From Pseudomonadales bacterium (lineage in GTDB: Bacteria > Pseudomonadota > Gammaproteobacteria > Pseudomonadales > Azotimanducaceae), in the NCBI GenBank assembly GCA_028281005.1, contig JANQKS010000030.1, positions 1 through 64,000 of the forward strand: DNA of 64,000 bases. Direction: 5' to 3'. Under the pieces are notes generated by a model, which was not told the DNA's origin, made no database searches, and worked only from the letters and a program-made list of their open reading frames with translations. Numbering within the stretch: the first letter of the stretch is position 1; every line of letters begins with the position of its first letter. Made by a program: the position numbers and the translations under genes. Below, one piece after another: positions 1,209 to 4,683 of this stretch.

Positions 1209-1766
1209 ATGAAAATTGGCTACGCTCGCGACTCTACCGACGAACAATTGCTCGACATGCAGATGGATGCTCTGCAGGCGGCTAAATGCGACCAAATCTT
1301 CAGAGATGAAGGTGTTTCTGCGATCGCGGCCAATCGGCCAGGGTTTGAAGCCGCGCTCGATGCTCTGAGCTCCGGCGACACGTTGGTGATTTGGAAACTT
1401 GATCGAGCCTTTCGCTCAACCGTCGATGCCATCCTTACGCTCGATAGTCTGCGGGATCGAAAGGTTGGCTTTCAGTGCACCACTTTACAGATCGATACCT
1501 CTACACCAGAAGGCCGCAAGTGGTATCGAGATACGGCCTCCTGGGCTGAGTATGAACGAGAACTTGTTTCCCAACGGACAAAGGCGGGCATGGCTGCAGC
1601 CAAGCGGAGGGGAAAACACGTTGGCCGACCTCGAGCACTAAATGCTGAGCAAATCCAACATGCAAAAATACAGATTGAGCAAGGCGGTACAGTCAGCGGC
1701 ACAGCTGCCTTGTTAGGGGTTGATCGGTCCACACTGCGCCGGGCATTGGGGAGCGCTCATGCCTAA
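1209..1766 (+). CDS. Serine recombinase (resolvase/invertase family)
   Basis: A 185-residue small serine recombinase that would catalyse site-specific DNA inversion or resolution. The N-terminal catalytic domain starts 'GYARDSTDEQ', placing the nucleophile at Ser9 with Arg7 beside it. The active-site arginines appear as 'LDRAFRS' (Arg66, Arg69), a variant of the usual LDRLGRS. The E-helix region is 'YERELVSQRTKAGMAAAK', followed by 'GRPRAL' and a C-terminal Hin-type HTH (about residues 160-182). Length and order are normal, so it should be active. It lies upstream of, and overlaps, a protease/PIN pair; the next ATG (1759) is inside its last codons. A recombination site was not recognised. Confidence 0.9.
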   Translation: MKIGYARDSTDEQLLDMQMDALQAAKCDQIFRDEGVSAIAANRPGFEAALDALSSGDTLVIWKLDRAFRSTVDAILTLDSLRDRKVGFQCTTLQIDTSTPEGRKWYRDTASWAEYERELVSQRTKAGMAAAKRRGKHVGRPRALNAEQIQHAKIQIEQGGTVSGTAALLGVDRSTLRRALGSAHA

Positions 1767-2901
1767 ATATGATCCCATACCTGTTACCCCTGCAATCATC
1801 ACCTGGGCACGGAACAATGCCGGGTTCTCTATCGAGCAGGCGAAAGAAACCTTCAAGGCAATCGAGCAATGGGAATCAGGCGAGGTCATGCCTAGCTATC
1901 CACAACTTGAATCTATGTCAGATAAATTCAAGGTGCCGATCGCGGTCTTCTTCTTCCCGGAACCGCCAGACCTTCCATCAATCAGCGAGTCGTTTCGTAC
2001 GATCCCTGAAAACGAGTTCGACACGTTGCCGCCAAAAATTCGTCTTTTGGTTCGCAAAGCCAAAGCCTTTCAGATAAATCTTGCCGAGCTCACTGGTGGG
2101 CAAAATCCGTCCGAGCGCATCCTTACCAAAGATTTGACCTTCACAGTTGATACTGCCATTGAAACGATGGCGGCAGAGGTTCGCAAATATCTCGGCATTT
2201 CTATCGCGGATCAACTGAGCTGGCCGGATGCCGACAAAGCATTAGAGGTTTGGCGAGATGCTATCCAGGATGCAGGCATCTATGTATTCAAAGACCCCTT
2301 CCGGGATAAAGATTTTTCGGGGTTCTGCCTTTACGACGATCAATTTCCGCTGATCTACGTCAACAACACTACGCCGAAAACGCGCCAGTGCTTTACCTTG
2401 TTTCACGAGCTCTGCCATTTGATCTTCCATACAAGTGGGCTGGATGGGTTCACTGAAGAATTTATCGATCACCTGCCCGACGAGGACCGGCGAATTGAGG
2501 TTATCTGCAATCGATTCGCTGCTGAGTTTCTCTTGCCGGATTCCGAATTTGAGAACGCGATTAGCGGCCTCGAGGCAAATCGGGAAACAGCCGCCCTACT
2601 CGCTAACAATTACAACGTCAGCCGCGAGTTTATTTACAGAAAACTGCTCGATAGATCTCTCATTACGCAAACAGAATATCGTGAAGCTGCCGCAGCCTGG
2701 AAAGGCGAAGCGAGCCGAACGGGCAGCGGCGGCGACTACTATTACAACGTTATTGCTTATCGTGGCCGTCCTTACATTGGCCTGGTCTTAAGCCAGTTCT
2801 ATCAAAATCGCATTGATGACGTAGAGGCTGCCGACTATCTCGATGTGACACCAAGAAACCTGGGCACCCTGGAAGACTATTTTGCGCGGGGCGCTGTTTG
2901 A
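1759..2901 (+). CDS. ImmA/IrrE-type metallopeptidase with N-terminal XRE-like region
   Basis: A 380-residue protein counted from ATG 1759, which overlaps the end of the recombinase gene; an earlier in-frame ATG at 1720 would lie deep inside that gene. The N-terminal 60 residues resemble a degenerate XRE-type helix-turn-helix ('ITWARNNAGFS', 'IEQWESGEVMPSYPQL'). The C-terminal half is a zinc peptidase: HELCH at residues 216-220 and an E...CNRFAAEFLLP block near 247-260. This architecture is often the antitoxin-like partner of DUF4411 proteins and is also related to phage-repressor proteases (ImmA). The downstream gene starts on a TTG inside its final codons. Membership of a toxin-antitoxin operon is inferred from this pairing. 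Confidence 0.85.
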   Translation: MPKYDPIPVTPAIITWARNNAGFSIEQAKETFKAIEQWESGEVMPSYPQLESMSDKFKVPIAVFFFPEPPDLPSISESFRTIPENEFDTLPPKIRLLVRKAKAFQINLAELTGGQNPSERILTKDLTFTVDTAIETMAAEVRKYLGISIADQLSWPDADKALEVWRDAIQDAGIYVFKDPFRDKDFSGFCLYDDQFPLIYVNNTTPKTRQCFTLFHELCHLIFHTSGLDGFTEEFIDHLPDEDRRIEVICNRFAAEFLLPDSEFENAISGLEANRETAALLANNYNVSREFIYRKLLDRSLITQTEYREAAAAWKGEASRTGSGGDYYYNVIAYRGRPYIGLVLSQFYQNRIDDVEAADYLDVTPRNLGTLEDYFARGAV

Positions 2902-3368
2902 TTTACGTCTTTGACACGAACACCTTCTCCGATCTGTTTAAAAGCTACTACCGAGGAAGATTCCCAACACTGTGGGGGCACTTCGATCAAATGATCGAAG
3001 CGGGAAGCATTACTTCTACGCGCGAAGTAAAGCGCGAGCTTGAAATCGGCCCCGTTCACACGTTGATTGATTGGAGCAAGGACAACGCCGAGGTGTTCAC
3101 TACGCCTACCGCTGAGGAAGCCGCGATCGTTCGACGTATCTATGAGGTTGAGCACTTCCAGCAAAATATCGAGCTGAAAAAAATGCTCAAAGGAGGACTA
3201 AACGCTGACCCCTTTATCGTAGCAAAAGCAGGCACGATAGAAGGAACCGTTGTTACACTCGAAGTAGAAAAGCCGAACGCCGCTAAGGTTCCAAATATTT
3301 GCAAGGAGCTCGATATACCCTGCATGAATCTCGAGCAATTCATGGAAGCTGAGGACTGGCAATTCTAA
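2898..3368 (+). CDS. DUF4411-family protein (PIN-like, putative toxin)
   Basis: A 156-residue protein starting at a TTG overlapping the stop of the peptidase gene (TTGA). It opens with a PIN-type first strand 'YVFDTNTFSDL' (Asp6) and has further acidic residues at expected places (Glu43, Glu48 in 'STREVKREL', Asp104 in 'ADPFIVAKA'). PIN domains of VapC type are Mg2+-dependent RNases. DUF4411 is found next to XRE-ImmA/IrrE proteins, as here, and is taken to be the toxin. RNase activity is inferred; the target is unknown. Confidence 0.75.
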   Translation: MIYVFDTNTFSDLFKSYYRGRFPTLWGHFDQMIEAGSITSTREVKRELEIGPVHTLIDWSKDNAEVFTTPTAEEAAIVRRIYEVEHFQQNIELKKMLKGGLNADPFIVAKAGTIEGTVVTLEVEKPNAAKVPNICKELDIPCMNLEQFMEAEDWQF

Positions 3369-3449: not shown

Positions 3450-3593
3450 ATGGTAAAACAAATGCTCAAAGCCGGAGCTCAAAACTCCGCCCTGTTGACC
3501 ATCTTCGGATGGCTTGCCTTTTTAGGATCGTTTTTCGTCACAGGCTTAGGTCTAGAAATCGCCTTTAAATCGGTCGCCAGGGTTCTGCCCTAA
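3450..3593 (+). CDS. 47-residue single-span membrane peptide
   Basis: A small ORF with a strong ribosome-binding site (AGAGGAGG seven bases before the ATG). The product has a short basic N-terminus (Lys3, Lys7), a hydrophobic stretch at about residues 14-36 ('LLTIFGWLAFLGSFFV' followed by TGLGLEIA), and a basic C-terminus. That is the shape of a small inner-membrane peptide such as a type I toxin or a mobile-element accessory peptide. The last codons and stop lie inside the right arm of the 17-bp inverted repeat. No family is recognised; function unknown. Confidence 0.55.
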   Translation: MVKQMLKAGAQNSALLTIFGWLAFLGSFFVTGLGLEIAFKSVARVLP

Positions 3594-3697: not shown

Positions 3698-4177
3698 ATG
3701 AGTGAAGCGATATTAGAAAACGACGATACCGACGACGGTGCAGTGAATTACCGAATTCGGGAAAAATGGGGTAACGCAGTCGGCAAAGGCGGTCTTACGG
3801 GATACCTCGCCCTGCCTGAAGTGCTTGTTAGAGGACAGCATCGGCTCGGCCTGAACTCGACTGAGATGATGGTTCTCATCAACATCCTGTTGCACTGGTG
3901 GTATCCCGAAAAAATGCCGTTTCCGAGTAACCAGAAAATCGCCAAGCGCATGGGCGTTGACCCTCGCACGGTTCAAAGGGCCTGCAAAACTCTCGAGGAC
4001 AAAAAACTGATCAAGCGGGAAGTTAAGATTTTCCACGATAAAGAAACCAACATTTATCAGTCGCAAAGAACCATTGACCTTACGCGACTCGTCGGTCGGC
4101 TCAACGAGATTGCGAAAGATTTAGGTCAGTACGCAAGTGATGTCGGGTTGGGCGGGGCTGCGAAAAAGCAGCCCTAA
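3698..4177 (+). CDS. Winged-helix protein, HTH_36 / replication-initiator-like
   Basis: A 159-residue protein with one clear winged helix at about residues 50-112: 'LNSTEMMVLINILLHWW', 'PFPSNQKIAKRMGVDPRTVQ', 'LEDKKLIKREVK'. This pattern is shared by HTH_36 proteins and by the winged helices of plasmid and phage replication initiators. The acidic N-terminus and Lys/Pro C-terminus look disordered. It is too short to be a full initiator, so a regulator of the mobile region is more likely. Dyads upstream suggest autoregulation. It ends six bases before the tRNA-like gene. Confidence 0.7.
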   Translation: MSEAILENDDTDDGAVNYRIREKWGNAVGKGGLTGYLALPEVLVRGQHRLGLNSTEMMVLINILLHWWYPEKMPFPSNQKIAKRMGVDPRTVQRACKTLEDKKLIKREVKIFHDKETNIYQSQRTIDLTRLVGRLNEIAKDLGQYASDVGLGGAAKKQP

Positions 4178-4183
4178 GCAACA

Positions 4184-4297
4184 AATGGCGTAGCTCAACT
4201 GGATAGAGCAGCTCGGTTACGAGGTGCACTGCGAGAAGATTAGAGAACTCCAGTGTACCGCCGAGAAGATGCGGGTTCGAGTCCCGCCATGCCATTT
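4184..4297 (+). tRNA. tRNA-Arg(ACG)-like gene with a 37-nt hairpin insertion in the anticodon loop
   Basis: Acceptor AATGGCG (4184-4190) pairs with TGCCATT (4290-4296). The D arm is GCTC/GAGC (4193-4196, 4206-4209) with a GG-containing loop. The anticodon stem is CTCGG (4212-4216)/CCGAG (4261-4265). The variable loop is AAGAT and the T arm is GCGGG-TTCGAGT-CCCGC (4271-4287). The anticodon loop reads TTACGA up to 4222, is interrupted by 37 nt (4223-4259), then resumes with G4260; without the insert it is a 7-nt loop with anticodon ACG. The insert folds on itself (GGTGCACTG/CAGTGTACC, 9 bp with one G-U). D arm and anticodon stem resemble bacterial tRNA-Arg(ACG). Oddities: one extra base (G4211), two extra bases (CA, 4288-4289), and no encoded CCA. 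It may be a decayed or specialised tRNA-like RNA. Confidence 0.55.
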
Positions 4298-4683
4298 ACA
4301 ACAACGGGAAGTGAAGGAAGGGTGGCGCAGCGTTGGTCATACTATTCCAAGCGATTGCCACCTGTGGCCTAGATGGTGTGATTGCGGCTTACTGCCCCGC
4401 GCTGATCCTACACTGTAACCCTATTAACCAGAGATGCGCGCCCCCTTCAAAAGTTTGGTCAACATGGACCCTCCTTATTTTCAAGGATCAAATGAAGGGT
4501 ATTAACCGACCCGATTAGAATTTCCTCAGAAAAATTAGTTCAACTTCAGCCCATTTTTCGCCGAAAAAAATGCCGAGATAGCTGCATCTCAAAAAGGACC
4601 CACTTTTTAAGATCAGAATTAGCCCCATTTTGTCGGCATTTAAAGTAGCAGCAAATTGCTACTCATAAAGCCCTCCAAGTACT
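4298..4683. other. Gene-free stretch; possible IS21-family end debris
   Basis: No credible ORF. Repeated short motifs resembling IS21-family terminal repeats occur: CCCATTTTTCG (about 4550), GACCCACTTTTTAA (about 4598) and CCCCATTTTGTCGGC (about 4624), plus the inverted pair AAATGCCGA/TCGGCATTT. The hairpin AGTAGCA-N6-TGCTACT is at 4644-4663. No istA or istB remains, so if this is an IS end the element has been deleted. The identification rests on remembered family patterns and is tentative. Confidence 0.3.

Follow-up and report, generated by a model that had tools for sequence, protein, structure and literature searches.

A tRNA-like RNA with a hairpin in its anticodon loop, placed by comparison in a dispersed family tied to bacterial DNA-binding genes

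A 64,000-nucleotide stretch of DNA from a Pseudomonadales bacterium (hereafter the window) contains, at 4184–4297, what reads as a tRNA-Arg(ACG) gene interrupted by a short hairpin in the anticodon loop. The earlier note on this DNA left three readings side by side: a spliced tRNA, a tRNA mimic and a decayed tRNA kept as an integration site. Which of these, if any, describes the RNA? Judged by comparison of its relatives, the odd tRNA is a real tRNA-like RNA and one member of a dispersed family. Its elements, together with the gene that precedes it, are the following.

3698..4177, plus strand: winged-helix (HTH_36 / DnaD_N-like) DNA-binding protein, 159 aa; Pfam HTH_36 2.5e-12, DnaD_N 2.5e-9
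4184..4297, plus strand: tRNA-like RNA with hairpin insert, whole; RF00005 31.0 bits, R2 84.9 bits, covariation
4191 and 4192: T8 and A9, read from the sequence
4193-4196/4206-4209: D stem
4203..4203, plus strand: A20, the chief determinant of arginine identity in bacteria; conserved as A in 32 of the 33 aligned members
4212-4216/4261-4265: anticodon stem, CTCGG/CCGAG
4217..4222, plus strand: TTACGA, the loop bases left of the insert; C4220 = C35, G4221 = G36
4223..4259, plus strand: hairpin insert, 37 nt, stem GGTGCACTG/CAGTGTACC; double-sided changes in 7 of 7 modelled pairs
4266-4270: variable region, AAGAT
4271-4287: T arm

The insert is positioned between residues 37 and 38, is followed by G4260 and forms its own 9-bp stem, which includes one G-U pair; direct reading (37 nt, 9-bp stem) bears out the earlier claim of a self-folding insert exactly at 37/38. 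The extra G4211, the extra bases past the T arm and the lack of an encoded CCA are likewise confirmed on the sequence, and the acceptor end of the window copy is irregular. A fold in which the hairpin forms the variable arm of a Ser/Leu/Sec-type tRNA is not seen: the variable region has the usual length of five bases, and the hairpin lies inside the anticodon loop. The Rfam tRNA model (RF00005) scores the RNA at 31.0 bits, above its gathering score of 29 bits, aligning all 71 model positions and setting aside 43 nt at the anticodon loop. The family covariance model R2, described below, gives 84.9 bits over 4184–4300, with the window copy itself among its 18 rows. ARAGORN makes no call on this RNA. 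Only RF00005 matched within the window at gathering scores, with no group I or II ribozyme core, and the insert measures 37 nt.

By minimum free energy the RNA is predicted to form a cloverleaf, with the insert prolonging the anticodon arm across an asymmetric loop. This loop is 6x1, as described before, or a 5-nt bulge if U4217 and G4260 are paired, and it is not a bulge-helix-bulge. Its energy is −48.1 kcal/mol, whereas 200 dinucleotide-shuffled versions average −31.5 (sd 3.3; z −5.05) and none of them reaches the native value. The signal is weak for the two closest relatives when each is folded alone: L034 gives z −1.96 (7 of 200 shuffles as low) with a best fold that is not a cloverleaf, and L035 gives z −1.63 (12 of 200 as low). 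The case for the fold therefore rests on comparison and not on single-sequence folding, and it is the existence of homologues that lifts the window RNA beyond chance.

At least 40 interrupted RNAs, located at 39 loci in proteobacterial genomes, plasmids and one viral contig, make up the family; they are the 42 matches to R2 minus two ordinary tRNAs. A blastn search of 200 genomes of the same taxonomic family returned two insert-bearing relatives, G076 (74% identity) and G120 (73%), each behind a related winged-helix gene. A covariance model of these two and the window copy (R1), scanned over 369 genomes of the class, gave two more members, G545 and G513, each behind such a winged-helix gene. 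The second model, R2, scanned over 398 genomes of the phylum, added G787, G619 and G741. With the own genome counted, carriers number at least 3 of 369 genomes in the class and at least 4 of 398 in the phylum; the scans score about 10 candidates per genome, which makes these counts lower bounds. Scanning named genomes and viral contigs for the pattern produced at least 236 stretches; some of these are further members, but many lie outside the family, being archaeal introns, tRNAs next to one another, masked stretches or other insert-bearing tRNAs. The window copy had no blastn match among plasmids and phages, and a search of E. coli genomes gave no match; an alphaproteobacterial member matched eight plasmid records, seven of which were examined and which supplied more members. 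Environmental carriers include Caulobacter sp. FWC26 (plasmid p1, L350) and Spongiibacter sp. IMCC21906 (L354). Eleven phage records matched over 29–38% of the query, nine of them from Caulobacter phages, where the matches are annotated as tRNA genes; these were not taken as members. L115 was dropped as a member (42.5 bits, hairpin unclear). A viral stretch, L307, scores 56.2 bits over 108 nt.

ARAGORN places a gene call inside the RNA in just 1 of 34 member-bearing sources, and with so few calls members of the family may be overlooked. Locus-tag gaps in the plasmid records suggest that other annotators list some members as RNA genes: the tags skip one number at the RNA in 6 of 7 records, which would fit an RNA gene entered at that point by NCBI's pipeline; the tables compared here contain no RNA genes.

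Inserts of another kind were seen in Lachnospiraceae records and viral contigs. Here tRNA genes carry inserts of very roughly 35–50 nt, placed by eye at about 28/29 on the anticodon stem's 5′ side, with several anticodons and, in L163 and L170, in tandem.

L163:1044-1434: tRNA with 28/29-type insert
L170:6601-7177: tRNA with 28/29-type insert
L140:968-1083: tRNA with 28/29-type insert
L252:2119-2233: tRNA with 28/29-type insert
L277:5244-5366: tRNA with 28/29-type insert
L277:6064-6183: tRNA with 28/29-type insert
L235:5452-5564: tRNA with 28/29-type insert

Common to these inserts is a short hairpin with a stretch resembling CAGCAA or TGCAA after it; Rfam calls tRNA only, and by look they form a class of small introns or inserts. 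Two more insert types, in tRNA-like genes mostly from Bacteroidetes, occur in L131, L148, L182, L193, L212 and L215 and in L116, L155, L179, L180, L208 and L214. One reads TTACTTTCCGCT...AAAGTTCCT (Chryseobacterium and others) and the other GGTCAAT-like...ACTTACT, each conserved by eye.

The family alignment holds 33 of the 40 RNAs; L165, L167, L173, L191, L211, L355 and L356 were left out because their anticodon arms are divergent or poorly aligned. The 33 rows are not independent, L034 and L035 being near-identical and L143 supplying two tandem copies, and the alignment was fitted to a model, which favours structure, so that controls matter. Standard pairs occupy 97.1% of 909 pair cells, against a mean of 78.7% with shuffled partners (0 of 500 shuffles as high; the shuffles ignore kinship), and the share drops to 38–48% when partners are slid by 1–3 columns. 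Changes on both sides occur in 22 of 28 pairs over the 33 rows. The count is 6 of 6 for the anticodon stem and 7 of 7 modelled pairs for the insert helix, in which 91.0% of cells are paired; covariation of tRNA arms and insert alike, which the earlier note had proposed to look for, is thus found among the homologues. Since G-U accounts for 62 of the 88 cells that are not Watson–Crick, the fold fits RNA better than single-stranded DNA.

Tertiary pairs of the tRNA core are also kept. The 15–48 (Levitt) pair, which the model structure does not impose, is G-C in 19 rows and A-T in 14, matching in 33 of 33, where shuffles average 16.9 and never reach 33 in 100,000 trials that ignore kinship. The 8–14 pair is T-A in all 33. 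The family RNA very probably folds as a tRNA core, on the evidence of the alignment, and readings at the DNA level (recombination site, attachment site) are set aside because of the G-U share and these tertiary pairs.

The arginine identity set comprises A20, C35, U/G36 (once U/C36) and A/G73 (PMC9976931). In the family, with numbering anchored on the hairpin, A20 is kept in 32 of 33 members, C35 in 33 and G or U36 in 33, and base 34 is free. All 5 tRNA-Arg of the own genome have A20, against 0 of its 26 other tRNAs. The triplets read back from the hairpin are TCT (12), TCG (10), GCT (4), GCG (3), ACG (3) and CCT (1); 29 of 33 are arginine anticodons and the four GCT are not. Where the anticodon stem has six pairs, the triplet would move by one base if it were counted from the D arm. 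The RNAs outside the alignment were read by eye: before the hairpin L173 has TCT, L355 TCG and L356 TCT, and in L191 and L165 the triplet stretch is not clearly kept. In L211 and L167 the hairpin appears to lie 5′ of TCTAA and not 3′, as if the insert had moved across the anticodon. CCA is encoded in 20 of 33 members. The discriminator departs from the A or G called for at 73, being C in 15, A in only 10 and T in 8; the pyrimidines, 23 of 33 together, speak against charging. When the anticodon arm is excluded, the nearest own-genome tRNA is Pro for 15 members, Arg for 13 and others for 5 (n = 33), so arginine is not singled out, and the ordinary tRNA scoring best with R2 is tRNA-Met in 20 of 26 loci; like the possible shift of the triplet, these comparisons weigh against an arginine origin or charging.

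The neighbouring gene is the second recurrent element of these loci. In the window, the RNA starts 6 nt past the stop codon of the winged-helix gene, and the Pfam match to HTH_36 agrees with the description given in the earlier note. In 25 of 39 loci the RNA directly follows a winged-helix gene on its own strand, and in 14 that gene is absent; the 25 include L364, a weak match (E 2.4e-6; Pfam DnaD_N only, below its cut-off). The distance from stop codon to RNA ranges from −10 to 59 nt and is 3–14 nt in 19 of the 25. Among pattern-scan loci the gene is found in 14 of 25 member loci versus 2 of 211 others, a Fisher comparison that is not matched for taxonomy, the 211 including archaea, Bacteroidetes, Firmicutes and phages. 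Other regulators occupy the same spot in L137 and L200 (HTH_3) and in L141 (MerR), and the order of regulator, then RNA, is seen at these loci too. The trees of gene and RNA agree weakly (Mantel r 0.17, 23 pairs, 489 of 9999 permutations as high). On a tree of 34 winged-helix proteins, the label ‘has RNA’ changes six times (9.5 on average when shuffled, and as few in 7 of 500 shuffles), and one clade of 11 proteins always has the RNA. A search for relatives of the protein through shared peptides in genome and viral contigs confirmed none, and 11 of 11 plasmid HTH_36 / DnaD-like relatives taken as controls have no RNA within the stretch examined. Two RNAs lie in tandem behind one winged-helix gene on the minus strand of L143 (4474–4583 and 4631–4738). 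Among winged-helix genes with no family RNA, those of L357 (3028) and L358 (3025) are followed by a common stretch, GCTGAGCCCCGG...CCAGGGCTTAC, and those of L052 (2968) and L361 (3001) by another, TTTTGTCCCGGGAGGAGGCTTTCGCCC; the winged-helix gene may have partners among several kinds of RNA.

The wider setting is one of mobile and defence genes. The window encodes a serine recombinase, in keeping with the mobile region described previously, and an XRE-M78 protein. On a Caulobacter plasmid the gene–RNA pair is flanked by GajA and AbiTii, and Abi_2 and Abi_C genes adjoin it in L141 and L329. In four loci of Rhodobacterales type (L135, L151, L167, L191) the RNA adjoins a DUF1489 gene, and in L135, L167 and L191 a ribonucleotide reductase gene follows 10–43 nt downstream; the stretch of L151 ends too early to show its downstream gene. 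This placement suggests a chromosomal copy kept in place. Terminator-like hairpins follow the RNA directly in L352 and L354 (about 0.5 expected by chance per stretch); around the gene–RNA pair of the window, no site resembling a promoter or a terminator turned up. At 1720–3368 of the window, the XRE-M78 peptidase gene, with PADLOC matches to the CapP and RmrA models, overlaps a DUF4411 gene, by look a toxin–antitoxin or defence pair. A 47-aa single-span membrane protein with no family match is encoded at 3450–3593, between the DUF4411 and winged-helix genes, and small membrane-like reading frames come after the winged-helix gene in the plasmid relatives L048 and L053.

How, then, is the RNA to be explained? 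Were it a real tRNA-Arg, the insert would be an intron, and some novel pathway of the bacterium or the element would have to excise it to yield a decoding tRNA. The insert does lie at the archaeal and eukaryal intron position, its removal from L055, L124, L141 and L225 would by eye yield a canonical 5-bp stem and 7-base loop, and the arginine triplets and encoded CCA ends fit a tRNA-Arg. However, RtcB and EndA were each found in 0 of 8 carrier genomes by searches that were positive in 9 (RtcB) and 4 (EndA) of 14 control genomes, the insert junctions lack a bulge-helix-bulge, and the window holds no ribozyme match. An elongator tRNA has an uninterrupted 7-base anticodon loop with U33, which is to our knowledge nearly universal in decoding tRNAs. 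In this family the hairpin is in the anticodon loop in 33 of 33 rows, U33 is present in 25 and missing in 8, and 32–38 is U-G in 31; the four GCT triplets and the pyrimidine discriminators also speak against an intron-bearing tRNA-Arg. Splicing of the insert is unlikely because RtcB and EndA were not found, no bulge-helix-bulge is present, 32–38 is U-G and U33 is so often lost, and the family RNA is probably not a decoding tRNA. In the own genome (5.1 Mb in 135 contigs), ordinary tRNA-Arg genes cover the anticodons ACG, TCG, CCG, CCT and TCT, among them the normal tRNA-Arg(ACG) that the earlier note had proposed to look for. Its spliced-tRNA reading is thus disfavoured, the RtcB named with it having been found in none of the eight carrier genomes searched, and we judge the intron explanation decidedly improbable. 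The third of the original readings, that of a tRNA in decay or of an attachment site that a mobile element has left behind, draws on the mobile neighbourhood and the irregular acceptor end of the window copy, but a fold that covaries and keeps its tertiary pairs over 33 members makes it hardly credible. An attachment site in a tRNA is expected to repeat the 3′ half; among the 135 contigs of the own genome this half is not repeated, and the only match to the RNA elsewhere is a 24-nt stretch of the D arm.

Two further explanations dispense with an arginyl-tRNA synthetase (ArgRS) partner. The tRNA fold might act in cis at the end of the regulator's transcript, as a signal for RNase P and RNase Z and a protector of the mRNA end, with the arginine features as inherited leftovers. 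The short gap behind the stop codon in 19 of 25 loci, the terminator-like hairpins of L352 and L354 and the kept tRNA core would suit such an element, but it leaves unexplained the conserved hairpin and the invariant C35 and G/U36 beside a free base 34, and in L135, L167 and L191 the RNA precedes the ribonucleotide reductase gene instead of lying behind a regulator; we consider it unlikely. Alternatively, the RNA could be a ligand of the winged-helix protein, either as a co-regulator or as a target to be neutralised. Tight linkage to DNA-binding genes and the 11-member clade that always has the RNA point that way, whereas the upstream genes vary (HTH_36, HTH_3, MerR), some loci have none, and gene and RNA co-vary weakly, which together make this a distinctly doubtful proposal.

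The reading that we prefer, and whose chances we put at about even, is that of a non-decoding mimic of arginine tRNA, made as the 3′ end of a regulator transcript in mobile, defence-rich DNA and serving as a decoy or sensor of arginine charging. Of the earlier suggestions, it is the mimic that gains support, from the covarying tRNA core, the U32-G38 pair and the losses of U33. The kept arginine determinants, the linkage to DNA-binding genes, the CCA ends encoded in 20 of 33 members and the terminator-like hairpins of L352 and L354 also count in favour; the pyrimidine discriminators, the missing CCA and irregular acceptor end of the window copy, the 14 loci with no winged-helix gene, the weak agreement of the trees and the negative search for promoter- or terminator-like sites in the window count against. 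The fold, determinants and gene linkage of the putative mimic are drawn from comparison, and we infer the remaining parts, namely ArgRS binding, release by RNase P and the role. The RNA would be co-transcribed with the upstream DNA-binding gene, cut by RNase P at its 5′ end a few bases past the stop codon and matured to CCA as a species of about 110 nt. ArgRS might then bind it, and perhaps charge it, through A20 and C35-G/U36, the latter left accessible in a bulge by the hairpin. Decoding, in turn, would be blocked by the hairpin together with the U32-G38 pair. As a decoy or sensor, it may be tied to, or checked by, the DNA-binding protein. A more specific version, which we offer tentatively and think rather unlikely, makes winged-helix repressor and arginine-tRNA-mimicking RNA a two-part module of mobile or defence DNA, acting in addiction or abortive infection. 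The RNA would occupy or deplete ArgRS and slow translation, and the protein would repress the operon. The RNA would be set free if the element were lost or if a phage interfered with the host's transcription or tRNAs.

Comparison with known systems places the family among familiar RNAs without equating it with any of them. With bacterial elongator tRNA-Arg it shares the tRNA core, tertiary pairs, A20, C35, G/U36 and often an encoded CCA; unlike it, the family has the loop hairpin, U32-G38, frequent loss of U33 and a mostly pyrimidine discriminator. The position and small size of the insert recall archaeal and eukaryal pre-tRNAs with a 37/38 intron, but the bulge-helix-bulge is absent and EndA and RtcB were not found in the eight carrier genomes. 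The protein partner is of the same kind as HTH_36 / DnaD-like plasmid proteins (PDB 2vn2 and 2v79, by sequence), although the 11 control relatives of that kind lack the RNA in the stretch examined. In Bacillus cereus, tRNA-Other is described as a pseudo-tRNA by a genomic island, non-translational and proposed to be part of a larger regulatory RNA (PMC3399842). It too is a tRNA-like element, and the sequence features and gene spacing of the present family would fit a regulatory pseudo-tRNA, but the part of that report available to us mentions neither an anticodon-loop hairpin nor a linked DNA-binding gene (PMC3399842), and the present family differs in being dispersed in proteobacteria and in its arginine signature. 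CreT RNA toxins are reported to sequester a rare tRNA via a tiny reading frame and to be repressed by CRISPR machinery, and one version was re-programmed for arginine tRNAs (PMC8501985). Like CreT as portrayed there, the family may pair a small RNA tied to rare-tRNA control with a check by transcriptional repression; unlike CreT, its RNA is itself a tRNA look-alike beside a DNA-binding gene (PMC8501985). In the open-access literature, surveyed through listings and abstracts, we found no description of a dispersed bacterial family with an ArgRS signature and a hairpin-closed anticodon loop.

RNAs that resemble tRNA and work outside translation are already a known kind. What seems new here is the combination of a kept ArgRS signature with a hairpin-closed anticodon loop, in RNAs linked to genes for DNA-binding proteins on plasmids and islands. 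Binding to ArgRS, if it occurs, would connect mobile elements with the charging of tRNA, a link that standard assays could test.
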